From a virus, in IMG/VR virus record IMGVR_UViG_3300020472_002797, positions 1 through 31,814 of that record: 31,814 bases of DNA; one strand, written 5' to 3'. This document shows positions 1 to 20,123 of this stretch, piece after piece. The translations under genes were made by a program, and so were the position numbers. The notes beneath the pieces were generated by a model. The model did not search any database and was not told where the DNA came from. It was given only the letters and a program-made list of their open reading frames with translations. Positions within the stretch are counted from its first letter, which is position 1. Each line of letters opens with the position of its first letter.

Positions 1-231
1 CATATCGATAAGAGTTCGTGTTTCAGGATTTATATCACTCTCGAATAAACCCTCAACTTCCTTATCCCATCTGTAAATCTTTTTGAGTTTATCTCCATAC
101 AAGGAAACATGAGTTCCATAACTATCTTTTACATATGCGTATTTTTTGAATGGAACCATAACATGACCATTCTTGTCATCCCATATGTGAACTTTTCTTT
201 TTGAACTATCGTAGTAAATATTTTGGTACAA
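1..231 (-). CDS. Family B DNA polymerase (gp43-like), N-terminal 77 residues, runs off the window
   Basis: The first 77 residues of a larger protein; the frame stays open to the window edge. The segment (YQNIYYD near the start, then IWDDKNGH, YAYVKDSYG, GDKLKKIYRW, GLFESDINPETRTL) reads like the N-terminal domain of phage and archaeal-type family B replicative polymerases, in which an 'LFESD..PETR.L' stretch precedes the exonuclease domain. The start is a TTG: an in-frame TAA lies immediately upstream, no ATG is available, and a strong Shine-Dalgarno (AAAGGAG, positions 242-248) sits about 10 nt before it. A sigma-70-like promoter at 262-290 lies between this gene and the glutamine synthetase stop. 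A replicase is expected downstream of the helicase/UvsX/gp32 block. The polymerase motifs themselves are outside the window, so the family call depends on the N-terminus alone. Confidence 0.72.
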   Translation of the reverse strand, partial: MYQNIYYDSSKRKVHIWDDKNGHVMVPFKKYAYVKDSYGTHVSLYGDKLKKIYRWDKEVEGLFESDINPETRTLIDM

Positions 232-293: not shown

Positions 294-1280
294 TTAACTG
301 CAGATTGTTTTGATTAATTTTTGTGAAACGACATAAGGATCACAATTTGATGAGGGTCTTCTGTCTTCCAAATAACCTTTTTTATCTCGTTCTACTTGCC
401 ATGGTATTCTAATAGAAGCTCCCCTATCTGAAACTCCATATCTAAACTCTGTAATACTACAGGTTTCATGTAGACCAGTCAATCTTTTATCATTATCTTG
501 ACCATAGGCGTCAATATGTTCTTGTGGATTTTTTGATAACTTTTCACAGGCGTTTATTATATCATCATAACCACCTTCTTCTCTCATCTCCTTTGTAGAG
601 AAATTGGTATGACATCCTGCACCATTCCAATCACCTTCGACTGGTTTTGGATGTAATGAAACAACAACCTCGTGTTTTTCACAAATTCTTTCTAATAACC
701 AACGAGCTACCCAAAGGTCATCACTCATGTGTATTGAACCACCTGCACCAATCTGATATTCCCATTGACCTAACATTACTTCAGCGTTAGTACCGCAGAT
801 ACTAATACCAGCATCAATACAAGCATTCATGTGTTCTCTTGAAATACTTTCACCAATGTTTCTACCACAATAGTAATCTCCTTGTGGTGGTGGAGTTCCA
901 GTTGAAGGCCAACCATAAGGTCTACCACCTTTGAATAATGTATACTCTTGTTCAAATCCTACCCATTCATCAATACCATCAGGTATAGTTTCTTCTAATA
1001 AATGTCTTGTATTCGATTTATGTGGTGTATCATCAACATTGTATACTTCACACAATACTATTGAAGAATTTTTTTCTAATGGATTGGGATAAACTCTTAC
1101 TGGTTTTAAAACACAATCCGAGCTCTTACCATCTGCTTGTTCAGTAGAACTACCATCAAATCCCCATATTGGGTCGAATCCCCACTCGGGTACTTTTAAT
1201 GGTTCCTTTACAACCTTTGTCTTATACCTTATTTGTGTTGGAGTACAGCCATCCAACCATAAATAATCTAACTTATGCAT
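294..1280 (-). CDS. Type II (eukaryote-like) glutamine synthetase
   Basis: ATP-dependent ligation of ammonium to glutamate, making glutamine. It is 328 aa, close to the usual GSII length. Visible motifs: WGFDGSST (39-46), the ExE metal ligands in FEQEY (109-113), a GWP...PPPQGDYYCG segment (123-139) typical of GSII, NAEVMLGQWEYQ (165-176), GAGCHTNFST (220-229), NDKRLTGLHET (263-273), RGASIRIP (286-293) and LEDRRPSSN (304-312). All catalytic blocks are present, so I expect an active enzyme. I chose the ATG at 1280, which has AAAGGA seven bases upstream, over a TTG 12 codons further up that lies inside the terminator hairpin. It follows the TonB receptor gene, separated by that hairpin. GSII is a cellular enzyme, unusual on a phage, and probably host-derived. 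It could raise the glutamine supply for nucleotide synthesis. Confidence 0.93.
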   Translation of the reverse strand: MHKLDYLWLDGCTPTQIRYKTKVVKEPLKVPEWGFDPIWGFDGSSTEQADGKSSDCVLKPVRVYPNPLEKNSSIVLCEVYNVDDTPHKSNTRHLLEETIPDGIDEWVGFEQEYTLFKGGRPYGWPSTGTPPPQGDYYCGRNIGESISREHMNACIDAGISICGTNAEVMLGQWEYQIGAGGSIHMSDDLWVARWLLERICEKHEVVVSLHPKPVEGDWNGAGCHTNFSTKEMREEGGYDDIINACEKLSKNPQEHIDAYGQDNDKRLTGLHETCSITEFRYGVSDRGASIRIPWQVERDKKGYLEDRRPSSNCDPYVVSQKLIKTICS

Positions 1281-1296
1281 TTTTATATCCTTTGAT

Positions 1297-1322
1297 AAAA
1301 GGGGGATATATTTCAATCCCCC
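1297..1322 (-). terminator. Hairpin between receptor and glutamine synthetase genes, possible terminator or attenuator
   Basis: On the minus strand GGGGGAT pairs with ATCCCCC (7 bp, mostly G-C, 8-nt loop), followed by TTTTAT. It lies 15 bp past the TonB receptor stop and ends next to the glutamine synthetase ribosome site. The U-tract is short, so termination may be partial. No clear promoter lies between it and the glutamine synthetase start. Confidence 0.6.
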
Positions 1323-1336
1323 CTAAGTTTATCATT

Positions 1337-4138
1337 TTAGAAATTAACACTAAGTCCTAAGTTAAAACTTCTTGGTGTTCCAAGAAATACTTCGGCGTTA
1401 TGTGCTAGGTGAAGTTTATCACCATACCCATTATACTTAGAGTTATCTGTTGCGTCTTGTACATATACATCGTCAAGTGCGTTAAATAGATGACCATTAA
1501 GAGTCATGTCAAGTCCTGCAATCTCAGGTAATTTGTAAGACAAATGTAAGTCTAACTTACCATAAGATGGAGTTTTCCATACTTGTGCTCTATCAGCGTC
1601 ACCTTCAACTTCACGAGAATCAGGACTCCAATCGGCATAATGATTATCATACCATCTGTAAAGTCCTTGTACTCTCAATCCTTTGACTGGTTTTAATGTT
1701 AATCCACCAACATAAGATGTTTGTGGCATATCACCAACTTTTAGATTGTTGAGTGCGTATTCATACTCAGTAGATGTTTGTCCAATGATTTGGTTATCAT
1801 CATTGTATTCCATACTTGTATAGTCACCGACAGCGTCTCCATCGAAATACCAATCACCAATACTAACTACGAAATCTAACTCTACCATTTCGTGAAGAGC
1901 AACTTTCGTTTCTACTTCTACTCCACTATGAGCTTGATTTACACCAGTTAAATAAATGATGTCGGTATCACCAGAATCACCTGCTCCAGTTTCAACTGAC
2001 TTGGTAAGGTTTCTATCGTTCCATTTAGTGTTATAGTAACTACCTTTAATAGCAACTAACTCACTACGATACTCTCCACCAACTTCAAAAGAGGTGAATT
2101 TTTCGTTATCAGGATCCGTTGATACATTACCATCGTAATCGATTACATTATCAAGAATTGGTGGTTTTTGAACATAACCACTATTGACGAAGGCTGAAAG
2201 TCTATCGTCTAAGTTGTAAGATGCTCCACCTTTAACTTGAAATGTTGTGATTGGGTCTGAAGTAACTGTTTCAAAATCAACAGCAAAATGGTCGTTGTAA
2301 GAGTATCCAATAGAGGATAATCCACCCATACCATAGAGGTTGAGTTTTTCTGTTGTGTAGTTACCTTGTAGAAATCCACCAATCCAATCAACTGTAGTTT
2401 CGTTGTGATAAGCGATAATATCACCTAACCCAACTTTCTTACCATCAGGTGCGTTATCATCAGCAAAGTCTACATAGTAGTCTCCACCTAATAAATCACG
2501 AACCTCACGAGCGTGTTCTATACCCGCCGTTCTCCAATCAATACCAACTTGAACTTCAAGTTCATCTGATACATCATAGTTTAACTTTGAAATCAAACCA
2601 TAAGTATCTTGTCTATTAATTGAATTACGAAGAATACCAGTTGAACGATTTTCGGTATCACTCCAATCACTATCTATGTTATCAGAATTCTGAGCTATCT
2701 CAGCGTTCCAATCCCACATCCAAGGTGAACTTCCGTACCATGCGTTACTCTCACCTTGTGAATCTAAAGCAACTGCTGGTTTACGAGATACACTACCATA
2801 AGTTCCTGTACCACCACCTGAACCACCACTCCAATATAAAACAGAACTTAGTTTTGTCTTATCATTGATAGTTAAGAAATGGTTTAGATTTACTAATGGT
2901 TTATGAAAGAAGTTTTCTCTTTCATTTAGGAAGTTAGGATTGTACCTATCAGTTGTACGGTCTCCGTACATATACCAATACTGCTGTCCTTTGTAGTCTG
3001 AACTAACATCGGCAACATTTTGGTTGAAGAATCTACCAGCTTCAGTTTCGAACTTTCCATCTACAGCAAAAGCTGATGGGTCGTAACCCACACCATTGGC
3101 CGTAACATCACCAGCTTCATTCAATACTGGATCTTCCCATCCAATATCTGTAGCTAGTTTTTGTGAATAAGTTGCGATATTCTGTTTGTATAGATTCTGT
3201 CCGTGTCGCTGTGGTGCTCCTATTGCATATAACTCAAAACGATTATCCTTATTAACGGCGTAAGAACCACCGACATAATATGCCCATGCGTCTGTCCAAG
3301 TGCCATTGATAAGACCATCACCAGTCTTTCTAACGATGGTTCCACTCAAGGCTAGCTTATCTTTAATGAGGCCTGTATTGTAGTTTAGAGTTGTTTTTAG
3401 GAAACCAGCTTCACCAACTTCTTGTTTGAACTTACCACCTTTCTCCATTGCTGAAGGGTCTGTGATTATGTTCATGGTTCCACCAATTGATGGTGTTGCT
3501 AGATTAACAGCTGATAGACCTCTTTGCATCTGAATTGAAGATGTAGCGTCACCCACTCCATCCCAATTAGACCAATAAACCCATCCGTTCTCCATATCAT
3601 TTTGGGGAACACCGTTTATCATTACTGCAACATTTCGTTGATTGAAACCTCTTACATTAATACGGGCATCACCCGCACCTCCACCTTGTTGAGTAGCGTA
3701 TACACTTGGTGTTGTGTTTAGAATCATTGGAATGTCTTGTGAACCAAGTCTGATTTCCATTTCTTCCTTACTAACATTAGTGTAAGCTACAGGTGTACTT
3801 TTATCGGCTCTCGATGCTAAAACTTCAACATCAGAGAGTTTCAAGGAATTAAGTTCGAGAACGAAATTAATACTTGCTACTTCTTCCCCAACTTTAACTG
3901 ATAAAGTTTGAGATTTGTAACCGATAAACGAAGCTGTAATGTCTACATCTCCAGCAGGGACATCAATAAGGAAGTTTCCGTTATTATCCGTTACCCCACC
4001 TAAGTCCGTGCTTTCAATTACGACATTAGCTCCGACAAGTGGTTGACCTTCCCCACTTACATTACCGACAACTGATTGACCCAAAAGGAAAATCGGCATC
4101 ATAAATGCAAACAGAGAAGTAATTAGGCGATTATTCAT
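1337..4138 (-). CDS. TonB-dependent outer-membrane receptor, full length
   Basis: A 933-aa outer-membrane active transporter, intact without frameshift. Residues 1-21 form a Sec signal peptide (MNNRLI, hydrophobic core, cleavage probably after LLG). Residues ~24-105 are a carboxypeptidase-regulatory-like beta-sandwich (PLVGANVVIE, GVTDNNGNF, FIGYKSQ) typical of Bacteroidota receptors. The plug follows at ~110-230 (INVRGFNQRNVAVMINGVPQ, then GGTMNIIT). The rest is a beta-barrel with alternating aromatic strands and a NFFHKPLVNLNH segment, ending in a terminal Phe (LGLSVNF) as needed for outer-membrane assembly. The start at 4138 has AAGGAG seven bases upstream; the longer frame from 4171 has no such site. 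It sits between class II RNR and glutamine synthetase on the phage coding strand. The substrate cannot be told from sequence. The size is larger than BtuB and closer to oligosaccharide or peptide receptors. Likely acquired from a host. Confidence 0.93.
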   Translation of the reverse strand: MNNRLITSLFAFMMPIFLLGQSVVGNVSGEGQPLVGANVVIESTDLGGVTDNNGNFLIDVPAGDVDITASFIGYKSQTLSVKVGEEVASINFVLELNSLKLSDVEVLASRADKSTPVAYTNVSKEEMEIRLGSQDIPMILNTTPSVYATQQGGGAGDARINVRGFNQRNVAVMINGVPQNDMENGWVYWSNWDGVGDATSSIQMQRGLSAVNLATPSIGGTMNIITDPSAMEKGGKFKQEVGEAGFLKTTLNYNTGLIKDKLALSGTIVRKTGDGLINGTWTDAWAYYVGGSYAVNKDNRFELYAIGAPQRHGQNLYKQNIATYSQKLATDIGWEDPVLNEAGDVTANGVGYDPSAFAVDGKFETEAGRFFNQNVADVSSDYKGQQYWYMYGDRTTDRYNPNFLNERENFFHKPLVNLNHFLTINDKTKLSSVLYWSGGSGGGTGTYGSVSRKPAVALDSQGESNAWYGSSPWMWDWNAEIAQNSDNIDSDWSDTENRSTGILRNSINRQDTYGLISKLNYDVSDELEVQVGIDWRTAGIEHAREVRDLLGGDYYVDFADDNAPDGKKVGLGDIIAYHNETTVDWIGGFLQGNYTTEKLNLYGMGGLSSIGYSYNDHFAVDFETVTSDPITTFQVKGGASYNLDDRLSAFVNSGYVQKPPILDNVIDYDGNVSTDPDNEKFTSFEVGGEYRSELVAIKGSYYNTKWNDRNLTKSVETGAGDSGDTDIIYLTGVNQAHSGVEVETKVALHEMVELDFVVSIGDWYFDGDAVGDYTSMEYNDDNQIIGQTSTEYEYALNNLKVGDMPQTSYVGGLTLKPVKGLRVQGLYRWYDNHYADWSPDSREVEGDADRAQVWKTPSYGKLDLHLSYKLPEIAGLDMTLNGHLFNALDDVYVQDATDNSKYNGYGDKLHLAHNAEVFLGTPRSFNLGLSVNF

Positions 4139-4225
4139 AAATCGTCTCCTTGTTTGGTTATTAGTTGACACATTTTTCTACAGGTGTGTCGTCTGCCTGT
4201 CCGCTTTTTTGTATGTGAAATCTTG

Positions 4226-6312: not shown

Positions 6313-7680
6313 CTATTCGAAGCCATCTAAGTCTTTTTCAAATATTTTTTTCTTTTCTGCTAGTGTTTTTCTCATAAACTCTTGTGAGTTATCCATTTTA
6401 CCTTGAGCATCTACACCACCACTTGAAGTAGATTCAAACACTTCAATTTTACCAATATTGGTATTTATTTGAGATGGATAAGTAACTCCATCTGGCCCGA
6501 ACCTATTTTTAATTACATGAAATCTACCTGTATTGGCTATCTTGTCTTCTACTTTTCTACTAACCGATACCACAAAATCTGCTATCATTACCTTTGAATA
6601 AGCTTCAGCAACCTTTGTAGCATCAATCACTTCCTCTTCCAATGAACTACGATTAGCCTGTGAGGCTGTCCATATTGGACATTCTATTTCACCAGCTAAT
6701 CCTCTTAAATCCTCATAAATATTTTCCAATACATGCCGTTTCTCAGTACCCATACCCTTTAAGATATCAGCGTAATCCACCAATACCAAATCAGGTTTTG
6801 TACCTTGTATTTCTATCTGACTCAGATGAGCGGCGAGAGTTTGAACCGTAGCACTTTTAGTTGGGAAATATTTAATAAGTAGTGTACCTTTAAGAGCATC
6901 TATCTTTTTCTTCACATCTTCTTGATAAAACTTAATATTTGCTGTCGGTACTCCACTAACAATAGTATCGTATCGTAATCCAACATAGTTTTGGTTTAAC
7001 TCTAATGTATAATGAACAACATTCAAACCTCGTTTTACGGCTGATGCTCCCATACTCTGTAAACACCAAGTCTTACCAATACCTGCTGGAGCTACAACAA
7101 CACCGAGTTCTCCACCACCTAATCCACCATCCATCAGTTCATCAATCGGATCCCAACCTGTTTTGACGGTTTCCCTTGAGGATTTTGTAAGTCTTTCTTC
7201 AATACCATCAATGTAATCATGTCCTAAATCTCGTTCACTACCAGCCTTCATGGCCTCATCAACCATCTTTTTTATTTCATCATACTGACCAACTTCTAAT
7301 AAATCCACACTCTCTAATATGGCAGCCTTAATAACTTGATTCCTACAAAACTCTAATGTTTGTTCTTGTACGAATTTCAAGTCTGTACTTTGAATCAATC
7401 TCCAACTTTCTTTTAATCCATCTACTACAGCAACTTTGAGTATATCATTTTCTATCTCATCTATCTTGACCTTCATTACCTCAAGTGTTGGTGAAGTCTT
7501 GTACTCAAAGAAATATTCTCGTATAGTTTGTGCTATCCATTTATTGGAATCAGCATCAAAATATTCAGGTTCTAATATATCACAAATGGTCTGTAGAAAA
7601 ACCTTCTCACCTAATAAAGATGAAATGATTTTAGTTTGGAATTTGTGTCCGAATTTAAGTAAAGTGTTTTGTTCACTCAT
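6313..7680 (-). CDS. Replicative DNA helicase, DnaB/gp41 family
   Basis: Hexameric 5'-3' helicase that unwinds DNA at the fork. The 455-aa protein has an N-terminal helical region (1-150), then a RecA-fold SF4 motor: the GGLGGGELGVVVAPAGIGKT stretch ends in the Walker A (197-204), the Walker B is LVLVDYAD (298-305), the glutamine sensor is TASQANR (338-344) and a late motif is HVIKNRFGPDG (388-398). Length and motif order match T4 gp41. The start ATG overlaps the stop of the preceding 60-aa gene as TAATG, so translation is probably coupled. It is the last gene of the replication block before the RNR cassette. No primase (gp61-like) gene was seen in the window. Confidence 0.92.
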   Translation of the reverse strand: MSEQNTLLKFGHKFQTKIISSLLGEKVFLQTICDILEPEYFDADSNKWIAQTIREYFFEYKTSPTLEVMKVKIDEIENDILKVAVVDGLKESWRLIQSTDLKFVQEQTLEFCRNQVIKAAILESVDLLEVGQYDEIKKMVDEAMKAGSERDLGHDYIDGIEERLTKSSRETVKTGWDPIDELMDGGLGGGELGVVVAPAGIGKTWCLQSMGASAVKRGLNVVHYTLELNQNYVGLRYDTIVSGVPTANIKFYQEDVKKKIDALKGTLLIKYFPTKSATVQTLAAHLSQIEIQGTKPDLVLVDYADILKGMGTEKRHVLENIYEDLRGLAGEIECPIWTASQANRSSLEEEVIDATKVAEAYSKVMIADFVVSVSRKVEDKIANTGRFHVIKNRFGPDGVTYPSQINTNIGKIEVFESTSSGGVDAQGKMDNSQEFMRKTLAEKKKIFEKDLDGFE

Positions 7681-7862
7681 TATTGGTCACCATAGATACT
7701 CTTGCCTCTATTTTGTCTAATCTTTTCTCGTTTCTTCTTCTTGTAAGTATCACGGGCCTTCTTCAAAATCTTATCTTTGTTGCGTTGATAATGTTCCATC
7801 TGCCATTTTCTTTGAGCATCTCGTTTTTCTTCTTCTGTTTGATATTTACGCTTTCGTCCCAT
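7680..7862 (-). CDS. Small highly basic protein between exonuclease and helicase
   Basis: 60 aa, dominated by Lys and Arg (MGRKRKYQTEEEKRDAQRKW at the start, then an uninterrupted charged helix to about residue 50). I do not recognise the family. Composition suggests a nucleic-acid-binding helix; similar short KRKY..EEEKR peptides occur as DNA-contacting extensions of phage proteins, but no HNH or zinc motif follows. Its first 17 bases overlap the exonuclease 3' end, and its stop overlaps the helicase start as TAATG, so it is embedded in a co-translated replication unit. The ribosome site is weak (GAAG). T4 has the helicase loader gp59 functionally linked to gp41; this protein is far too short to be called that. 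Confidence 0.6.
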   Translation of the reverse strand: MGRKRKYQTEEEKRDAQRKWQMEHYQRNKDKILKKARDTYKKKKREKIRQNRGKSIYGDQ

Positions 7863-8907
7863 TGTTTATCTTCGCAAATCTATTTAACTTTGTCCAAGTC
7901 TGCATTATCCAACTATCCATATTTGGAAGTGCTCCAAACATTCGGTCTTCAATAAACATCTTCTGAAAGTTAGGTTTTGATAATTCAGGTATCTTTCCGT
8001 TTACTATGTTATTAACTTTTAATTTAGCATTTCCACTAATATCAACATCTTGAAGTTGCATCAATCTATGATTTAAATGTATTGTATCGATACTATCTAA
8101 AATTAAATCATAAAATCTACTACCTTTATGTTTTTTAGCTTCTTTTATGATTTCATCACGAGTTATCTTGACATCATCACCAAATTGTGGAAAGTTTTTT
8201 AAGAGTGTTTTAATTCCAATTCCCATAACACCCTTAATATTATCAGATTGGTCACCTTCAAAAATTCTACTCAACAATAAGTTTTTAGATGTAACCTTGT
8301 ATTCTTCTAATACTTTTTCAGGATTGTAGAGTTTCTTTTTTGTCGGCGACCAAACCGAAATTCTGTCACTAACCAATTGTAAAAAGTCCTTGTCGGTACT
8401 CATGATTGTTGTTTTACTCTTGGGTAGTAACTGTTTTGCGATATAAGCCATCACATCATCTGCCTCGACATTGTCAACTGATATAATATTTACGGGCAGT
8501 TTTTCCAAATATTCAGCACATCGCGATAGTTGCATCAACATAGAATGCCGTTCATCATCTATGTTTTCGAACTCATTTACACGATTGAGTCTGATTTTGG
8601 TTGTTCGCTTTGCCTTATACTCAGGATAAAGTTTACGGCGGCGGTTACTCCCACCCTTACCATCAAAAACTATGATAGTGCGAGTAGGAGCTAACATCTT
8701 AATTGCGTAACCAACCGATTTAAGAAAACCAACTATTCCACCAACATGAATACCATCATCATTGGTAGTTGGTATAACACTAAATACTCTTATGAAAGTA
8801 TTTAAGCCATCTATTATCAGTACTTTCTCATTGGGATTATTGGAGTAAGAATCACCGCCGCTTTTCTTTATTTCATTTAGTATCGATATGTATCGACCTT
8901 TACTCAT
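7846..8907 (-). CDS. 5'-3' exonuclease / RNase H of the FEN family (T4 Rnh-like)
   Basis: Removes RNA primers and 5' flaps at lagging-strand junctions. The 353-aa protein has the metal-binding acidic residues of FEN-type nucleases: LIIDGLN (30-36), VFDGKGGSNRRRK (80-92, with the basic arch), VEADD (147-151), STDKDFLQL (170-178) and the helix-hairpin-helix DNA-binding segment GDQSDNIKGVMGIGIKT (218-234). I chose the ATG at 8907 (MSKGRY), which overlaps the uvsX stop by eight bases. A longer frame from 8943 would lie deep inside uvsX. The ribosome site is weak, consistent with coupling to uvsX. Its place between uvsX and the helicase fits a T4-like replication operon. Confidence 0.88.
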   Translation of the reverse strand: MSKGRYISILNEIKKSGGDSYSNNPNEKVLIIDGLNTFIRVFSVIPTTNDDGIHVGGIVGFLKSVGYAIKMLAPTRTIIVFDGKGGSNRRRKLYPEYKAKRTTKIRLNRVNEFENIDDERHSMLMQLSRCAEYLEKLPVNIISVDNVEADDVMAYIAKQLLPKSKTTIMSTDKDFLQLVSDRISVWSPTKKKLYNPEKVLEEYKVTSKNLLLSRIFEGDQSDNIKGVMGIGIKTLLKNFPQFGDDVKITRDEIIKEAKKHKGSRFYDLILDSIDTIHLNHRLMQLQDVDISGNAKLKVNNIVNGKIPELSKPNFQKMFIEDRMFGALPNMDSWIMQTWTKLNRFAKINNGTKA

Positions 8908-10006
8908 CGCCAACCACTTCGTCTGTATATTCCACATCATCAATACCCAACTCTTCGGTTTGATATTTTAAGATAGATGCTTCACATATTTTTCCGTATA
9001 GGTATTCTTCGAGTTCAGGTCTTTCATCCAATACTTTTTTGAAGTCTTTAGATTGGAACTTAATGTCCTCATCTTCAAACTGTATTGTGTACCACGCTCC
9101 AGCTACTTTAACCAACTTGTGGTCTTTCATAACTTGTAACCAACTTCCCTTATCATCAATACCACTATCGAAATAAAGGTTAAAGTCAGCGTGTCTTAGA
9201 GGTGGCCCTAATCTGTTCTTGATTATTTGTGCTCGAGCTTTCATACCTAAAGTATTTTTCTTCGTGTCCTTAATCTGTCCCATATTCTTTAATCGAATAC
9301 GAGTAGAAGCGTGAAATGGTAATGCTTTACCACCACTTGTAGTCCACGGGTCTCCAAACATAACTCCGAGTTTTTGTCTGAGTTGGTTTGTAAATACCAA
9401 AGCTACTCTTTCTCTACCTACCATTTGGGTAATCTTTCTCATAGCCTTTGAGATAACAATGGCTTTAGAAGTTGCCCATCCATCTTTGTCATAGTCAGCT
9501 TCCATCTCAACTTTTGTTGAAACTGCTGCTAAACTATCAACCAAGATAGTCACTAACCTATCTCTATCACTTTCACGAACCTTTGTGATTATATTTTCAA
9601 TACACTCAAAAATATCCTCTACGGTTTCAACATGAAGATAAAGTAGGTTTTGTACATCGATACCAATTGTTTCTAACCACTCACGACTAACTGAAGTCTC
9701 AGTATCAATGTAGACTGCAAGTCCACCTTTCTTCTGAGTTTCTGCTAATATGTGAGTTCCTATCAAAGACTTACCACTACTTTCCAATCCGTTGATTTCG
9801 GTTATACGACCAACGGCGATTCCACCATTTGGTCTATTGGAAATAGCTAAGTCTAAGATAGATGAACCAGTTGATATAAACTCCTTGATGTCTGTAGGAG
9901 TGGAATCACTTCCATCTAAAAAGTAAGCTACACGATTGTTCTTGAAGTTCTTATTAAGATTTTCAGCAAGAGCCTGTGCTAGCTCGTCTTTGACTGCTAA
10001 GGCCAT
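8900..10006 (-). CDS. uvsX: Recombinase, RecA/UvsX family
   Basis: Strand-exchange ATPase for recombination-dependent replication and repair. The 368-aa protein shows the RecA core: Walker A GLESSGKS (73-80), the catalytic acidic patch at YIDTETSVS (99-107), Walker B ILVDS (154-158) and the DNA-binding L2 region followed by FTNQLRQKLGVMFGDPWTTS, GGKALPFHASTRIRL (from ~205). Length and motifs fit both phage UvsX and bacterial RecA; the neighbours (gp32-like, FEN nuclease, gp41-like) favour the phage role. The start has AGGAG eight bases upstream (AGGAGACCTCA then ATG). It begins 16 bp after the gp32-like gene and ends overlapping the exonuclease, so these form one transcription unit. Confidence 0.93.
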   Translation of the reverse strand: MALAVKDELAQALAENLNKNFKNNRVAYFLDGSDSTPTDIKEFISTGSSILDLAISNRPNGGIAVGRITEINGLESSGKSLIGTHILAETQKKGGLAVYIDTETSVSREWLETIGIDVQNLLYLHVETVEDIFECIENIITKVRESDRDRLVTILVDSLAAVSTKVEMEADYDKDGWATSKAIVISKAMRKITQMVGRERVALVFTNQLRQKLGVMFGDPWTTSGGKALPFHASTRIRLKNMGQIKDTKKNTLGMKARAQIIKNRLGPPLRHADFNLYFDSGIDDKGSWLQVMKDHKLVKVAGAWYTIQFEDEDIKFQSKDFKKVLDERPELEEYLYGKICEASILKYQTEELGIDDVEYTDEVVGDE

Positions 10007-10022: not shown

Positions 10023-10790
10023 TTAAGAATTAAAAAGGTCATCGAAGGCATCACTTACATTTTCAGTTGTACTAACTGCTGTTTTTAAAGTTGATGCTGG
10101 TACTGATTCTTCCTTATTGGATTCTTCTGTACCTTCTTCGTTCTCAGGAGTCAACCAAGTATTAAGAGCTTCACTTAGTTCATCGTAAGATAACTCTTGA
10201 TAAACTTCGGTGATATCTTTTTGGTTGTCCAAGATATTCTCAAGTTGTGCCTTATCCTCTGTGATAGGTGTTTGATTTGGTTTAACACGGATGTTAGTTT
10301 TTGGGAATGATGCCCCAGTCTCTTCTGCAGTTAGGAACTCAACTCCAACATCACGACCATTCAATGGGTCAGCGATATCACCATAATCAGGATCCGCTAT
10401 GATTGATAGTAATTCTTGATAAACAGTTTTACCAAAACCCCAAAACTTAACACCTTGTGCTTCTTCTCCACGAACCACTACTGGTGCGAATGTTCTGAGT
10501 TTTGCTTCTAACTTCTTACCAAGTCTCCAATCCTCACGATTACCACTTGACTTTAACTTGTCAGCAAACTCTTCGATTGGGTCAGGTCTTCCAAATGAAG
10601 TTGGTGAAAGATAAGACTTTCCACCTAAGTCATAATGAAAAAACAGCTCAATAAACGGAGTGTCTTTTTGTAGTTTGTAAGGTACTATTCTGATTTGGGT
10701 TTTACCCGGTTGAGGTTTCCACAGATTTGTGGTACGAGTATTAGTCGTTTGTAACTGAGCTAATCTCTTGCGTACTGCGTTAATATCCAT
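10023..10790 (-). CDS. Single-stranded DNA-binding protein, gp32-like
   Basis: Coats ssDNA at forks and recombination intermediates. The 255-aa protein begins with a short basic-helical N-arm (MDINAVRKRLAQL) and continues into an OB-fold-like core rich in aromatics (NLWKPQPGKTQIRIVPY, LFFHYDLGGKSYL, VKFWGFGKTVYQELL). It ends in an acidic, Ser/Glu-rich tail finishing DAFDDLFNS (247-255), the type of C-terminus phage SSBs use to bind polymerase, helicase and recombinase. I see no Cys/His zinc site as in T4 gp32. The start has AAGGAG eight bases upstream. It is first in the replication operon, with its own promoter at 10863-10891 and a hairpin at the predicted mRNA 5' end (10835-10859). The identity rests on architecture and context as much as sequence. 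Confidence 0.85.
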   Translation of the reverse strand: MDINAVRKRLAQLQTTNTRTTNLWKPQPGKTQIRIVPYKLQKDTPFIELFFHYDLGGKSYLSPTSFGRPDPIEEFADKLKSSGNREDWRLGKKLEAKLRTFAPVVVRGEEAQGVKFWGFGKTVYQELLSIIADPDYGDIADPLNGRDVGVEFLTAEETGASFPKTNIRVKPNQTPITEDKAQLENILDNQKDITEVYQELSYDELSEALNTWLTPENEEGTEESNKEESVPASTLKTAVSTTENVSDAFDDLFNS

Positions 10791-14170: not shown

Positions 14171-15007
14171 TTACTTTTTATTGTGGATTAGGTCGAGGGC
14201 TAATTGGTGTGAGAATCTTCCAGCCTTAGGGCCTCCGTTGACCCTACCATCACTTTCACCAGGTACCTTTACCCAAAGATATGCATCTACGATTTCATCG
14301 CAGGTTTTTGTGGTGGGATATTCTCCGATTGAACGACCAAATGGATTGAAATGTTCTGAGTTTGCCCCATTACCATTTCTTGATGTGTCGATAACAAAGT
14401 GTGTGTTATCAAGTCTTTTTGAAATCTTTTTACCATAATCATAACAAGTGGTTGTTGCATAATAATTACTCGTGTTTAACGCAAAACCCTTTACCTTGTG
14501 TACATCACATAGAGTTAGATAACTAACGGCCTTTGGTACTGATAACCAAGTGGGATGACCGATATCAATGTAGACTAAAGCATTAGTTCTACTTAATAAT
14601 TCAATTGAAGCCTTAATCAAACTCATTCTATCCATTCCATCCACCACACCCATTTGTTCCATATGTGGAATACAATCAGGCTCATATATTACTATTGGAC
14701 TTCTATCACCTATAGCATCACAAAATTCTTGAATGAATTCTAAATATTCATCAGTAGTATCTGCACCACCCTTTGAATGATGTCCTAAATCTCTATTTGG
14801 GATTGAATAAATTACTATAACAGGTAGGTAGGGATGGGCTCTTTTGAGTAATCTTTTTATTGATTTTTTAGTTTTTCGTATGTTTCTTTTGGGGCCTACA
14901 CCATACCAAAAAGCTATCGGTTCTTTTGTTATTTGTTTGATTTCAGGATAATCTTCACAGACATCCTTTCGACTATTCCAGTCAGGATAATAAAACCTAT
15001 AATTCAT
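14171..15007 (-). CDS. Glycoside hydrolase family 6 (endoglucanase/cellobiohydrolase-like)
   Basis: GH6 enzymes hydrolyse beta-1,4-glucans with inversion. The 278-aa protein carries every core block of the family in order: IPNRDLGHHSKGG (69-81, Asp73 like Asp175 of Trichoderma Cel6A), IYEPDCIPHM (107-116, Asp111 like the catalytic acid Asp221), YIDIGHPTWL (146-155), GFALNTSNYY (~174-183), FVIDTSRNGNG (204-214) and WVKVPGESDG (245-254, Asp253 like Asp401). It is a bare, compact catalytic domain: no signal peptide, linker or carbohydrate-binding module. The ATG directly follows the TAG of the upstream gene with no good ribosome site, implying re-initiation. Without export it must act in the cytoplasm, leave at lysis or ride on the virion. 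A host exopolysaccharide or cellulose-like polymer is the plausible target. Confidence 0.88.
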   Translation of the reverse strand: MNYRFYYPDWNSRKDVCEDYPEIKQITKEPIAFWYGVGPKRNIRKTKKSIKRLLKRAHPYLPVIVIYSIPNRDLGHHSKGGADTTDEYLEFIQEFCDAIGDRSPIVIYEPDCIPHMEQMGVVDGMDRMSLIKASIELLSRTNALVYIDIGHPTWLSVPKAVSYLTLCDVHKVKGFALNTSNYYATTTCYDYGKKISKRLDNTHFVIDTSRNGNGANSEHFNPFGRSIGEYPTTKTCDEIVDAYLWVKVPGESDGRVNGGPKAGRFSHQLALDLIHNKK

Positions 15008-15424
15008 CTACAAATTTTCGTTATTCCAAGTCTCCGTGTTGATTATTCGATGAATTTTTGTCGGTATGACATTTAGTCCTTGTTCATTTACTAATAATAA
15101 CGAATTTTGAAACTCACTCCAAGTTATTGGAAATGTTTTGTCCAACACACCATTGTTCTTTTCACGAATAACCTCGTTTAAAGCATTTATTGTATATAAT
15201 GTATTGGATTGTTTTTTTCTATGTAGTGCTATAGTGTCCATCCCCTCGATAAAATTATCTTGGTTGTTTGGAATGTTATAGGTACATATTAGCTGTGACA
15301 TATCCTTTTGGTTATTGAATATGTAAATCTTATCGAATAGCACATCATGACAACTGATGATTAAATCTATCGTGGGTTTCAACCTATCTTGGATTGTGAA
15401 TGTACAGAGTAATTGAGTTTTCAT
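15008..15424 (-). CDS. Unknown 138-aa phage protein
   Basis: Starts MKTQLLCTFTIQDRLKPTID one base after the stop of the 722-aa gene. It contains LFDKIYIFNNQ, an LICTYNIPNN segment, then IALHRKKQSNTLYTINALNE, DKTFPITWSEFQNSLLLVNE and a C-terminal VIPTKIHRIINTE. A compact alpha/beta fold is likely. I have the impression that related proteins occur in marine T4-like phages, but I know no function and assign none. Its stop codon abuts the GH6 start, so the two may be translated together. Confidence 0.72.
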   Translation of the reverse strand: MKTQLLCTFTIQDRLKPTIDLIISCHDVLFDKIYIFNNQKDMSQLICTYNIPNNQDNFIEGMDTIALHRKKQSNTLYTINALNEVIREKNNGVLDKTFPITWSEFQNSLLLVNEQGLNVIPTKIHRIINTETWNNENL

Positions 15425-15425
15425 A

Positions 15426-17594
15426 TTATTTCTTCATACTCTTTATTTTATCATCTAAAGAGTCGATCCTTTTTTGTATTACATCATACTCTTTTTGAGT
15501 ATAGGATGAACCATCGGCTGTTAATGCCTTTAAATCTTCTTGTGCTTCCTTCTTCAACTTAGAGTAAAAATTCTTTTGAATCTGAAACGGCCAACTTTCA
15601 GGATTCCAACCATGTTGTAATGCCTTCGCTGTATAATCGGTGTGTAAAATCTCCAATTGTGGTGGAGTTGGTAAACCACGACTTCTTGCCTTTGTGTTAA
15701 ATAGTGGGTAGTATCCATTCTCGTGCTTGACACCAATTGTTTTTGTGGCATAATCAACACTTAATTTTCCCCTAACCATTTCCATTACCTCTTCTTGTAA
15801 TTCTTTTCTTTCTTTCTCATCTTTTGTATCTCTGGCCTGACCAATCAATGATAATACCTTATCTTTTTCTTCCCCATCACCAAAAAATAAACCGGTAAAT
15901 GTGTTTAAATCCATCATCGAACCTAATTCGTTAGTACCTTCTCCCTTTTCATTACTACCAAATAAGACTTTGAAATCATCAACACCACCTGAGTCTTTAA
16001 ATCCAAGAACTTCACCCAAATGAACTCCATTCAAAAGAAAGTTTTTGAACGCCTTTTCATTTTCTGGTGACTTTCCAATAAAATCATACATCTTATCAGA
16101 TAGTTTGTGTTCCCATTGTCTGAAATTATTATATAATTCTCTTGACCTTGTATAATTAGGATCATCCTTTGGTGTATCATTTACAACAAATCTAAGTATA
16201 CCTTTTGCATGTTTAGCTGTTGTTTCTAATTTACCACTTTGGAGATATTCGTCTAATTGCTGTTCGGTTGTTTTACCTTCCCAAGTTGATGAATCACCTA
16301 CAAATGGTTTTAAATAATCTTTATATCCAGCCCTTAGTGTTGATTTACCAGTCAATTTTTTAAAATCTTGTTCGGCTTGTCTATCACCATTCATACCTCT
16401 TGTGTATAAATCTTTTGCCCTATCTATGGTGTTTATTAAATTTGTTCGAGTGTTTGACTTTTCTTTTAACTCGTTGGAAAGTGTAGTCTGTGCATCTTGT
16501 ATTCCTTTTTGCCAAACTTGTAATCCTGCTGTATCTTGAAACTCATTTAGTATCTTATCGACTTCTCCCTCATCCATACCCGATTCTAACATCTCACTTC
16601 TCATAGATTCTAAAACCTTTGGAAATTCTTGTTTATAAGTTTTATTTGCTATTGCTACATTTCCATCCTTCTTCAAAGATAGTGCTACAACAGAACCATC
16701 TTTAGTAGATATAAACATATCACCAGCACCTTCTTCAGCTGCCTTATCGTTTTCACCCTTGATACCAACATGCTTTCTACCATTAGTTGTGTCCCAACCG
16801 ATTTCTTTTACATTCTCAATACCTATGGCTTCAGGATTTTTATTCTCGTCTTTAATCATCATCCTTTCAATCGAATTAATGGATGATTCTACCCATTCAG
16901 GTTCAAGATAAGTTTCTTTATTATTTTCCCACTTTCCTTTTTCGTTTTGTGAACCAGCCTTTTGTAACATTTCTGCTCTGAATTTTGATAAAAAATTATT
17001 TCTTAACCAATTCTTTTTATCTTCATAACTTAATGATTCCCAAGCCTGTTTATCGTTTCCAAACTGAGCTCTCCAAGTTTTAACGGCCTGTTTCATTCCT
17101 TTGACTACGGTTGCTTCTCCTGCAGTACTTGCTGGTTTACCCATACCTAAATCAATATCATCAGGTAGTTCCTCACCATCTTCTCGTTCAGTTGCAAATT
17201 CTAAATATCTGTCTTCTTCTTTACTCTCAGGTGTATCATCATATCCTCTTTCATCTTTTTGAGGTTTTTCATCCTTACCTTTCTGTAAATCGTCATCATC
17301 CTTTACACCAAGTGCCTTCTTAACATCTTGAGCTGATGCATCTTTTTTTACTAACCTTTGTCCTCTATCAGGATTAAATTGTTTAACTGGATAATCAGAA
17401 CCATAACTACCATCAGGTTGTTTTTTTCTAACTAAGTCGATTTCGTATAAAAAATTATTAACTGCATTTTTATTCCAACCCCTTTTCAAGAGTTCCATTC
17501 TCAATAACATTCTATCGTTAGGATTTGTAAAATCAGGAGCTCCACCTTTAGATTTAAAACTAAAACCCTCTAATAATTTTTCCCAATAATTCAT
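15426..17594 (-). CDS. Large unknown protein with a nuclease-like motif
   Basis: 722 aa. Residues 1-50 form an ordered start (MNYWEKLLEGFSFKSKGGAP, RMELLKRGWNKNAVNNFLYE), followed by an acidic, disordered, Asp/Glu/Lys-rich linker (about 95-150). Residues ~232-312 (EWVESSINSIERMM, WDTTNGRKHVGIKG, GAGDMFIST, VVALSLKKDGN) have the helix-strand-strand layout and the D...(S/E)xK spacing of PD-(D/E)XK nucleases: Asp292, then Ser306-Leu-Lys308. The C-terminal third includes PLFNTKARSRGLPTPPQLEI and ends in a Lys-rich coiled coil. The start has CGGAGA seven bases before the ATG and a 4-base ATGA overlap with the polymerase-like gene. It could be a virion or DNA-processing protein. The nuclease idea is inference from pattern only. 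Confidence 0.78.
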   Translation of the reverse strand: MNYWEKLLEGFSFKSKGGAPDFTNPNDRMLLRMELLKRGWNKNAVNNFLYEIDLVRKKQPDGSYGSDYPVKQFNPDRGQRLVKKDASAQDVKKALGVKDDDDLQKGKDEKPQKDERGYDDTPESKEEDRYLEFATEREDGEELPDDIDLGMGKPASTAGEATVVKGMKQAVKTWRAQFGNDKQAWESLSYEDKKNWLRNNFLSKFRAEMLQKAGSQNEKGKWENNKETYLEPEWVESSINSIERMMIKDENKNPEAIGIENVKEIGWDTTNGRKHVGIKGENDKAAEEGAGDMFISTKDGSVVALSLKKDGNVAIANKTYKQEFPKVLESMRSEMLESGMDEGEVDKILNEFQDTAGLQVWQKGIQDAQTTLSNELKEKSNTRTNLINTIDRAKDLYTRGMNGDRQAEQDFKKLTGKSTLRAGYKDYLKPFVGDSSTWEGKTTEQQLDEYLQSGKLETTAKHAKGILRFVVNDTPKDDPNYTRSRELYNNFRQWEHKLSDKMYDFIGKSPENEKAFKNFLLNGVHLGEVLGFKDSGGVDDFKVLFGSNEKGEGTNELGSMMDLNTFTGLFFGDGEEKDKVLSLIGQARDTKDEKERKELQEEVMEMVRGKLSVDYATKTIGVKHENGYYPLFNTKARSRGLPTPPQLEILHTDYTAKALQHGWNPESWPFQIQKNFYSKLKKEAQEDLKALTADGSSYTQKEYDVIQKRIDSLDDKIKSMKK

Positions 17595-18910
17595 AATTTC
17601 TCCGTTATATCTTCCATTTCGTGGTAATTCAAACCCTTTGAAGATTTAGTCGGAAACACTCTATTTTGTTCGAGTATTTCTTTTACATCTGTCAAAAAAT
17701 CTAAACCATCGGTTAGTTTGAAGTCAAACAAAAAGCTATCGTAACTATACAATATTAACTTACTTTGTTTACCCTTCAAGAACGGAATCAATTCACTCAT
17801 AACCTTCATATTGTTTTCCGTTTCCAACAACTGAATCATATAGTTAAACAACTTATTACGATTCATGGCCGAAAGATTTTTTTTGTATATTCTCTTGTTA
17901 TAAATATTGCTTTCTACGAAATCTCTTCGTTTGAAATCACTCCAAATTTCATTTATATAGTTATTAACACGAAAGAAAAATGGATTCGTATCAATTACTT
18001 CTTGAGGTATTCTACCATAAAGATACTGAAATGAGGTACTTTTGGATGTTTCATAGTCCACATCACCATAAAATTCACTCATATGTTCATGAACCGACCC
18101 TTTTGGGAACTTATAATCCAAAATATGACCAATCAATCTTAAGTGATATGCATCATAGTCAAACTCCACCAATATACCATCTTGAAATCTACTCGTGTAT
18201 GGTTTTCTTGATTCATCCTTTTTATTTAGAGCTGCAAAATTAATACCACCGAATCTGTTACTTGGTCGACCAGTTGAGGTGTATAAATTATATTCACTAA
18301 ACACCATTTTATCATCTTTTCTTAATCCACTCTTTTCTATGAAACTTAAGTTTTCTATGATTTCATTGTTATACTCTTCGTGGATAGGTAATTTATAATT
18401 GTCCTCTAATAGTTTAACTTGTTCTCTACATAATTCTAAGTGTTTAAGTATTGGTATTATACGATTGGTATTTTTCATTTTCCACATTACTCTGTAAAAG
18501 TAATCATGTGTATTGGTGGATATTTCCTCTATCGATAAAGGCTCATTCTTATTCATGTAATGTTGTAAATTTACATCTATTACTTTTTTCATAACTTCAT
18601 CTTTCAAAACATTACCACTTGGTGTATTAATACCAAATTCCAATATATGAGATAGTTGTTTTTTATCATGAACGAATATACTACCGAACTTATTTATTGT
18701 CAATAGTTTTTTTAAACTTAGTTTTAATGCTTCTCCATGATTAAAGCACAACAAACCCTCTTCACCATCAACTATTTTTACATAAATAGCACAGAGTGAA
18801 TTATCTAATGGATGTCTATTCACATCCGATAATATTGGAATTATAAAGCAATCTTTGTTCTGATTTTCAAGCAAAAAATCATCTAATTGATTGTCTTTTT
18901 CAATTATCAC
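17591..18910 (-). CDS. Short, divergent family A DNA polymerase-like protein
   Basis: 439 aa. The C-terminal half is a family A palm/fingers: TSTGRPSNRFGGIN (211-224, like the TGRLSS..PNLQNIP block), motif A FDYDAYHLRLIGH (250-262; Asp251 = Klenow Asp705), motif B with Lys290, Phe294, Tyr298-Gly299 (= K758, F762, Y766-G), a NYMIQ block (356-360, = N845/Q849) and motif C YSYDSFLF (388-395; Asp391 = Asp882). Both metal-binding Asp are kept, but several usual residues differ: His256 for steric-gate Glu710, Tyr286 for Arg754, Tyr390-Asp-Ser392 for His-Asp-Glu. The N-terminal ~190 residues show no 3'-5' exonuclease motif I can recognise. GTG start with AGG nearby. The genome also begins a family B polymerase at 231. 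Role: repair, primer extension or an inactive accessory factor. Confidence 0.82.
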   Translation of the reverse strand: MIIEKDNQLDDFLLENQNKDCFIIPILSDVNRHPLDNSLCAIYVKIVDGEEGLLCFNHGEALKLSLKKLLTINKFGSIFVHDKKQLSHILEFGINTPSGNVLKDEVMKKVIDVNLQHYMNKNEPLSIEEISTNTHDYFYRVMWKMKNTNRIIPILKHLELCREQVKLLEDNYKLPIHEEYNNEIIENLSFIEKSGLRKDDKMVFSEYNLYTSTGRPSNRFGGINFAALNKKDESRKPYTSRFQDGILVEFDYDAYHLRLIGHILDYKFPKGSVHEHMSEFYGDVDYETSKSTSFQYLYGRIPQEVIDTNPFFFRVNNYINEIWSDFKRRDFVESNIYNKRIYKKNLSAMNRNKLFNYMIQLLETENNMKVMSELIPFLKGKQSKLILYSYDSFLFDFKLTDGLDFLTDVKEILEQNRVFPTKSSKGLNYHEMEDITEKL

Positions 18911-18955: not shown

Positions 18956-19459
18956 CTATCTAAATTTTCTGATGGATTCGTGTTCCCAATTGAACCAATC
19001 CAAAACCTCTCGTTGACTTCTATAACAATCTAACAATTCACCCTTTGTTTTAATCATGTCACTATCTAACTTCTCACCTCTATCAAAACACCAAAGTAAT
19101 TCAGGTCTAAGATGAGCTAAAACATCATGACAACCTCTATGTCTTGGATGACCATACTCTCCGTTTTCACCATGTGTTACAATCTTTTTGTAATCTCTTT
19201 CCCTTAATACCCTTAATAGTTCATAGATTAACTTTTCTCTAAAATAGTCCTCTTTACCCTTATATCCAGTCCAATGTTCATATTCATTGATACCAATAAA
19301 TCTCATACTATCTAAGAACTCTCTTCGTCTTATATCATTATGATATTCATCTAAGACTACAACCTTATATTCATCAGGATGACTAAGTAATTCCGCACCA
19401 CCAAATAATGCCTCATCATCAGGATGTGAAACAATCATGATTTTGTCTATTTTATTCAC
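18956..19459 (-). CDS. PIG-L/LmbE-family N-acetyl-glycan deacetylase
   Basis: Zinc hydrolases of this family remove acetyl groups from GlcNAc-containing substrates. The 167-aa protein has the signature HPDDE (12-16) after IMIVS and the late zinc-site region THGENGEYGHPRHRGCHD (95-112). It is shorter than many family members but both metal motifs are present. I chose the GTG at 19459: GAGG lies nine bases upstream, and it overlaps the nagB stop by eight bases. The longer frame to 19528 lies within nagB and adds no PIG-L-like sequence. Its partner is NagB, immediately upstream, so an amino sugar is the likely substrate; other PIG-L clades deacetylate bacillithiol or mycothiol precursors or antibiotics. 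Confidence 0.88.
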   Translation of the reverse strand: MNKIDKIMIVSHPDDEALFGGAELLSHPDEYKVVVLDEYHNDIRRREFLDSMRFIGINEYEHWTGYKGKEDYFREKLIYELLRVLRERDYKKIVTHGENGEYGHPRHRGCHDVLAHLRPELLWCFDRGEKLDSDMIKTKGELLDCYRSQREVLDWFNWEHESIRKFR

Positions 19460-20123
19460 TATAAAATACCTCACAATTTGAATGTTCTTGTAAAAGTGAA
19501 GCTGGGATATCATCGGTAATATCACCATAAACAGCTTCTTCTAAAATTTCTTTTTTATGTTTACCTACTGCAACTAAATATATCTTTTCGGCACCCAAAA
19601 TACTTGACATTCCCATTGTGTATGCCTGTGTGGGAACATCTTCAATGTTTTCAAAAAACCGACTATTATCCTTTATGGTGTTTTCTGTCAAATCAACTAT
19701 TCGTGTAGATGAGTATTTGTGTGAACCTGGTTCATTAAAGGCTATATGTCCATTGGTTCCAATTCCTAATATTTGAATATCGATTCCACCACTATTTTTA
19801 ATCATCAAATCATATTCATTATAATTTTCTTCGGTTGGAAAATGGTGTGTTCTGAAATTTAAATTACTGAACAAATGTTTGTTCATAAAATATTGGTAAG
19901 ATTGGTCATGATGTTTATCAATTCCAACATATTCATCAAGATTAAAAGTTATTGTATCACCGAAATTTGTGTTTCTCATTTTACTGAGTTTTTCATAGAT
20001 ACCAATTGGTGTGGAACCAGTAGCAAGTCCTAAAACAACATGACTTTGGTGTTTTACTTTGTCACGAATATTACTTGATATTAAATGACAAACTTTTTCG
20101 TAAGTATTACTCCTAATCCTCAT
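19452..20123 (-). CDS. nagB: Glucosamine-6-phosphate deaminase
   Basis: Converts glucosamine-6-phosphate to fructose-6-phosphate and ammonium, reversibly. The 223-aa protein has the phosphate-binding GLATGSTP (32-39), NLDEYVGI with the catalytic Asp (61-68), the signature GIGTNGHIAFNEPGS (120-134; His126 and Glu131), TMGMSSIL (169-176) and PASLLQ (207-212). The family's second Asp (GxDGH in E. coli) is Asn here; many short NagB proteins carry the N variant. It is short compared with the E. coli enzyme (266 aa), lacking the C-terminal allosteric tail. It overlaps thyX by 11 bases at its start and the PIG-L gene at its end, so the three are one operon. It can feed sugar carbon into the host and release ammonium for glutamine synthetase. 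Confidence 0.92.
   Translation of the reverse strand: MRIRSNTYEKVCHLISSNIRDKVKHQSHVVLGLATGSTPIGIYEKLSKMRNTNFGDTITFNLDEYVGIDKHHDQSYQYFMNKHLFSNLNFRTHHFPTEENYNEYDLMIKNSGGIDIQILGIGTNGHIAFNEPGSHKYSSTRIVDLTENTIKDNSRFFENIEDVPTQAYTMGMSSILGAEKIYLVAVGKHKKEILEEAVYGDITDDIPASLLQEHSNCEVFYSE

Follow-up and report, generated by a model that had tools for sequence, protein, structure and literature searches.

A predicted Klenow-like accessory family A DNA polymerase with a histidine at the steric gate position in a marine T4-like phage

T4-like phages that possess a complete replicase and a primase still keep a second DNA polymerase, which raises the question why. We analysed one such locus, located in a 31.8-kb fragment (31,814 nt, hereafter the window) of a virus record; the baseplate and replication genes of this phage are T4-like. 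The minus strand harbours at 17591..18910 a real ORF of 439 aa with a GTG start, whose last bases share a 4-base overlap with the next ORF. An initial annotation had read it as a degenerate but possibly specialised family A DNA polymerase beside a family B replicase. According to our analysis, the ORF is almost certainly a member of the divPolA1 family. This family was named by Yutin et al. (2024, Virol J 21:200; PMC11348598) for 14 genomes including that of Flavobacterium phage immuto, and in the literature searched the name occurs only in that paper and its preprint. Its main text describes divPolA1 as a protein with a truncated thumb, a dead exonuclease and an intact palm that occurs alongside a regular PolA, PolB or PolC; the authors suggest a role in replication and infer that polymerase activity has been retained.

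Family membership and predicted fold

The window protein shows every divPolA1 feature given in the main text of PMC11348598: homology to the immuto protein, presence in addition to a regular polymerase, catalytic palm residues, a truncated thumb, replaced exonuclease acids and replication genes downstream. With the divPolA1 proteins of immuto and its relatives described there it shares full-length homology, the inactive exonuclease, the truncated thumb, the intact palm and the same downstream cassette; in contrast to the immuto protein, it belongs to a more distant clade and to a phage with a PolB replicase. Its identity to immuto gp1 is 32% over 90% of the query (tblastn, E 9e-56), and the two can be aligned over their full length. 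A first search revealed 44 close relatives in viral contigs, and a profile search raised the number to at least 586 IMG/VR stretches. Full-length homologues were restricted, in a set of 50,697 phage records, to immuto (4 records), the Microcystis phage Mel-JY01 and LR756508, an uncultured phage of 484 kb. Of 13 immuto-like contigs, 12 carry the gene; it is absent from the T5-like, crAss-like and RM378 genomes tested. A scan of bacterial and archaeal genomes yielded only three metagenome-assembled contigs.

As a single sequence the protein has no match in Pfam, PHROGs or PDB sequences, and a profile search of PDB sequences likewise gave nothing. The immuto homologue, however, exceeds the cut-off of Pfam DNA_pol_A, a model that is matched by only 6 of 27 family members. 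Aligning the family profile with canonical PolAs gave a match across palm and fingers (hhalign 96.8%, E 2e-10), which confirms the family A landmarks noticed initially, i.e. the TGR block and motifs A, B and C. Since there are at least 586 relatives, 106 of them with invariant key residues, and since the immuto protein matches DNA_pol_A, the resemblance to family A goes far beyond chance. Kinship with the split polymerase of Rhodothermus phage RM378, which had been considered at the outset, found no support. RM378 is T4-like and its annotated polymerase ORF (p092) is, with 522 aa, short like divPolA1; yet its genome lacks divPolA1, and the divPolA1 profile has no significant match to the single p092 sequence (hhalign 0.15%).

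An AlphaFold2 model built from 64 relatives (pLDDT 93.5, pTM 0.90) has Klenow as its best Foldseek match (E 1.7e-15). Residues 1-433 of the model superpose on residues 302-876 of the Bacillus Pol I chain with Z 26 over 381-395 residues at 3.5-3.8 Å, and a superposition with Z 26.4 over 387 residues at 3.7 Å supports the Pol I large-fragment fold. As predicted, divPolA1 is a miniature Pol I large fragment across its whole length. Its approximate layout comprises a vestigial exonuclease domain (residues ~1-125), a shortened thumb (~126-205) and the palm and fingers (~206-439). In common with Klenow and the Bacillus large fragment (BF) it has the whole-chain fold (Z 26), the metal-binding Asp residues and the Lys, Phe and Tyr of the fingers. 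It differs from them by His in place of E710, Tyr in place of R754, Tyr in place of H881, the loss of the exonuclease acids, shorter fingers and ~100 residues fewer between the exonuclease domain and TGR. By the standards of canonical Pol I, therefore, the large-fragment fold is present and the Glu at E710 is absent.

The earlier statement that no exonuclease is recognisable holds for the sequence, where the alignment of the N-terminal domain with canonical exonuclease domains is not significant (0.45%). It does not hold for the structure, in which a vestigial domain of exonuclease fold aligns from residue 1 to residue 302 of Bacillus Pol I. Because the sequence alignment is not significant, this domain is assigned from structure only. 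In a forced alignment, itself not significant, I26 and S28 stand opposite the exonuclease acids D355 and E357, and D82 is an Asp in only 70 of 106 family members. To judge from these residues, the exonuclease is probably dead and its catalytic acids are gone, in agreement with the main text of PMC11348598. From D112, the equivalent of D463, to Arg215 of TGR there are ~103 residues as compared with 205 in E. coli, and the model has few helices there. The thumb region is therefore shortened by about 100 residues, while the palm is intact.

Active site and selection

The motifs of the window protein are located at 213-215 (TGR), D251-Y-D-A-Y-H256 (motif A), Y286/K290/F294/Y298-G299 (motif B) and Y390-D391-S392 (motif C). 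In the hhalign alignment D251 is equivalent to D705, H256 to E710, Y286 to R754, K290 to K758, F294 to F762, Y298 to Y766, G299 to G767, N356 to N845, Q360 to Q849, Y390 to H881, D391 to D882 and S392 to E883. It becomes clear from 106 family members that D251, K290, F294, Y298, G299, N356, Q360 and D391 are invariant (106/106 each) and that the replaced positions are equally fixed, with His at E710 and Tyr at H881 in all 106 and Tyr at R754 in 104; the search patterns contained the TGR and YD[SA] stretches, which biases those columns and leaves the others unaffected. Both metal-binding Asp residues, D251 and D391, are thus kept as first noted, and the exchanges of Glu710 for His and Arg754 for Tyr were read correctly.

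For comparison we compiled 57 non-redundant canonical phage and bacterial PolAs from three single-protein searches. The E710 position is Glu in 56 of them, the only exception being the RM378 ORF, which aligns poorly; Arg is found at R754 in 55 and His at H881 in 54. The E883 position is variable, with Gln in 29, Ser in 15 and Glu in 10 of the 57, and the active phage PolA Tt72 carries Ser there as well (PMC9324360). The Ser of YDS, being ordinary among phage PolAs, was consequently rejected as a sign of decay. Of the degeneration from HDE to YDS proposed initially, only the replacement of H881 by Tyr, fixed throughout the family, is unusual.

A published description of family A treats E710 as a universally conserved residue that pairs with Y766 (PMC4882331), yet it is His in every tabulated member of a widespread phage family whose core is under strong selection. 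The family therefore represents a natural experiment on the steric gate. H256 probably still touches the invariant equivalent of Tyr766, so that the nucleotide pocket would be re-tuned and not simply opened to ribonucleotides. The words "steric", "histidine" and "ribonucleotide" are absent from the main text of PMC11348598. New beyond that text are the invariant His/Tyr/Tyr signature, the scale of the family, the argument from primases and the pairing with a second protein (p138, see below), some of which may be contained in its figures or supplements.

It could be argued that such a protein has lost catalysis and survives as a relic that binds DNA or contacts other proteins inside the replication complex. 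The exchanges at E710, R754 and H881 indeed hit positions that are nearly invariant in other phage PolAs, the thumb is short and the exonuclease domain is dead. Decaying active sites, however, normally lose the metal-binding Asp and core catalytic residues first, and here the metal-binding Asp residues are retained in all 106 members together with the equivalents of K758, F762, Y766, N845 and Q849. Moreover, the dN/dS of related copies over the whole gene lies at 0.07-0.11 for six of the seven pairs compared, the remaining pair having 0.21, and the palm and fingers half has a lower value than the N-terminal half in all seven. The gene is thus under strong purifying selection, which together with the invariant catalytic Asp, Lys, Tyr, Asn and Gln residues disfavours the relic. 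Retained polymerase activity is also what Yutin et al. infer in their main text (PMC11348598), and we regard a relic as unlikely. The replacements of E710 and R754 could nonetheless mean very weak or altered catalysis.

Replicase, primase and gene neighbourhood

The family B replicase noted initially is indeed encoded in the window, as its N-terminal ~77 codons at 1..231 (read 231..1, minus strand), ending at the contig edge. According to tblastn this fragment is 90% identical to the PolB of one relative (L056, E 3e-39) and 78% identical to that of another (L054, E 1e-34). The initial proposal that a specialised family A enzyme accompanies a replicase of family B is supported. PolB is also present in Mel-JY01, LR756508 and most of the long non-immuto contigs searched, whereas immuto has a full-length PolA in its place. 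The replicase is swapped among divPolA1 carriers; therefore, the accessory polymerase stays while the replicase changes. In LR756508.1 (260623-266900) the PolB matches fall into two open frames ~4 kb apart (1022 and 625 aa), like an insertion or a gene split. The PolB gene of the window adjoins a gene at 294-1316 (minus strand) for a 340-aa glutamine-synthetase-like protein with the N- and C-terminal Pfam domains. Also near PolB in the replication region, 1337-4171 (minus strand) codes for a 944-aa protein that resembles TonB-dependent receptors and contains carboxypeptidase-regulatory and plug domains.

Primer synthesis had been suggested as one possible task of the second polymerase. A ribonucleotide-tolerant enzyme of this kind would make primers or RNA and so replace a primase. 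It would be in line with the His at the steric gate in all relatives and with the lack of a primase in the window, where a search with a relative's primase agreed with the initial observation for the 31.8-kb fragment. Separate DnaG-type primases are present, however, in four long or complete genomes of relatives (immuto, Mel-JY01, LR756508 and one 165-kb contig), and primer synthesis as the task of divPolA1 was rejected on these grounds. An open steric gate does not follow from the exchange either, because His is bulky and Phe is retained at the 762 position, and no RNA-polymerase structure is found among the best 50 VIA matches. We thus consider a ribonucleotide-tolerant primase substitute very unlikely.

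Downstream of divPolA1, in the window as in relatives, the minus strand carries genes for a gp32-like single-strand DNA binding protein (SSB, 10023..10790; PF08804, E 2e-11; PHROG 1192), a UvsX/RecA-like recombinase (8900..10006; PF00154, E 7e-59; phrog_97), a 5'-3' exonuclease, the separately encoded counterpart of the Pol I 5' nuclease domain (7846..8943; PF02739, E 7e-35; PF01367) and a DnaB-like replicative helicase (6313..7680; PF03796, E 4e-15; phrog_19). In 58 divPolA1 loci with at least 7.9 kb of downstream flank, we found SSB (53 loci), UvsX (52) and the 5' nuclease (49). Variable insertions, namely the GH6-like protein described below and a 722-aa protein, displace the remaining neighbours out of range in at least some loci. 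All 17 divPolA1 records examined for the 5' nuclease have a PF02739 match, 16 of them above the cut-off. divPolA1 thus holds a fixed place heading an SSB-UvsX-5' nuclease-DnaB cassette. The 722-aa protein (15426..17594, minus strand), encoded between divPolA1 and p138 (see below), has no confident Pfam or PHROG match, is variable among relatives (13/58 loci) and probably lies outside the divPolA1 core. Directly upstream of divPolA1, a PIG-L-type deacetylase gene overlaps a glucosamine-6-phosphate isomerase-like gene (18956-20123, minus strand); each occurs in 7 related loci.

The neighbourhood also distinguishes divPolA1 from divPolA2 of barbaviruses. According to the main text of PMC11348598, divPolA2 is likewise an extra divergent PolA that has no exonuclease activity and occurs in PolB phages; its N-terminal globular domain is unrelated and its gene neighbourhoods vary, whereas divPolA1 of the window has a vestigial exonuclease domain and a fixed neighbourhood.

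The link to UvsX and SSB, together with the dead exonuclease and the altered nucleotide pocket, might suggest a translesion (damage-tolerant) or end-joining polymerase in the manner of the exonuclease-dead family A enzymes Pol nu and Pol theta, both of which are among the Foldseek matches of divPolA1. Pol theta uses insertions for such work, however, and divPolA1, being shorter and not longer, has no room for them. Furthermore, Klenow-type enzymes are the better match, and retention in 12 of 13 immuto-like contigs resembles core replication and not an optional damage response. A translesion or end-joining role is therefore decidedly improbable.

The co-occurring protein p138 and the proposed function

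A nameless protein of 138 aa, p138 (15008..15424, minus strand), strictly co-occurs with divPolA1. It was found in 58 of 58 divPolA1 loci with enough flank (at least 7.9 kb downstream), and in the reciprocal search divPolA1 was present in 35 of 35 p138 loci with at least 3.3 kb upstream. Both are confined to the same six of the 50,697 phage records; p138 was not found in RM378 by tblastn, and its relatives amount to at least 591 IMG/VR stretches. The protein has a near-invariant stretch, HRKK..NTLYTIN.LN, and an AlphaFold2 model of mixed alpha/beta type (pLDDT 93.3). Comparison with PDB folds gave no clear match, the best Foldseek E being 0.05 and the best Z 6.5, under the background of 7-8; accordingly, p138 has no confident PHROG or PDB identification. 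The idea that it is a UvsY equivalent, which was based on size, is not supported by the mixed alpha/beta fold and the weak PDB matches. The link between p138 and divPolA1 rests on co-occurrence, from which p138 is probably a dedicated partner or subunit of the polymerase. This strict pairing offers a tangible starting point for working out what p138, which otherwise has no name, does.

Taken together, it is reasonable to propose that divPolA1 is an accessory DNA polymerase, active but non-proofreading, that serves gap filling, primer replacement and/or recombination intermediates and would act with SSB, UvsX and the 5' nuclease, having p138 as partner. We favour this reading, which sequence comparison and models make the probable one. 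Catalytic activity is inferred because of the fold, the invariant core residues, the purifying selection and the separate replicase and primase. The enzyme would be distributive, lack proofreading and make short stretches of DNA that the replicase does not. In gap filling and primer replacement it would work alongside the 5' nuclease, so that the two separate genes together would amount to a Pol I; it may also, or instead, extend recombination intermediates made by UvsX. The evidence appears compatible with either task and does not separate them, and the neighbourhood does not single out one of them, as T4-like phages commonly carry SSB, UvsX and the 5' nuclease. Nick sealing would need another ligase, because an ATP-dependent ligase was not found among 11 divPolA1 phages.

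A further-reaching proposal, conceivable if rather doubtful, sees divPolA1 and p138 as the two obligate components of one polymerase, specialised for a T4-like replication step outside the reach of replicase and primase, e.g. at ribonucleotide-containing primer ends or UvsX D-loops. Its active site would be unique in family A: the Glu gate is replaced by His, and Tyr stands in both for the triphosphate-binding Arg and for the His of motif C.

A glycosyl hydrolase family 6-like gene (14171-15007, minus strand; E 3e-46) separates p138 from the SSB gene and is present in 21 of the 58 related loci.
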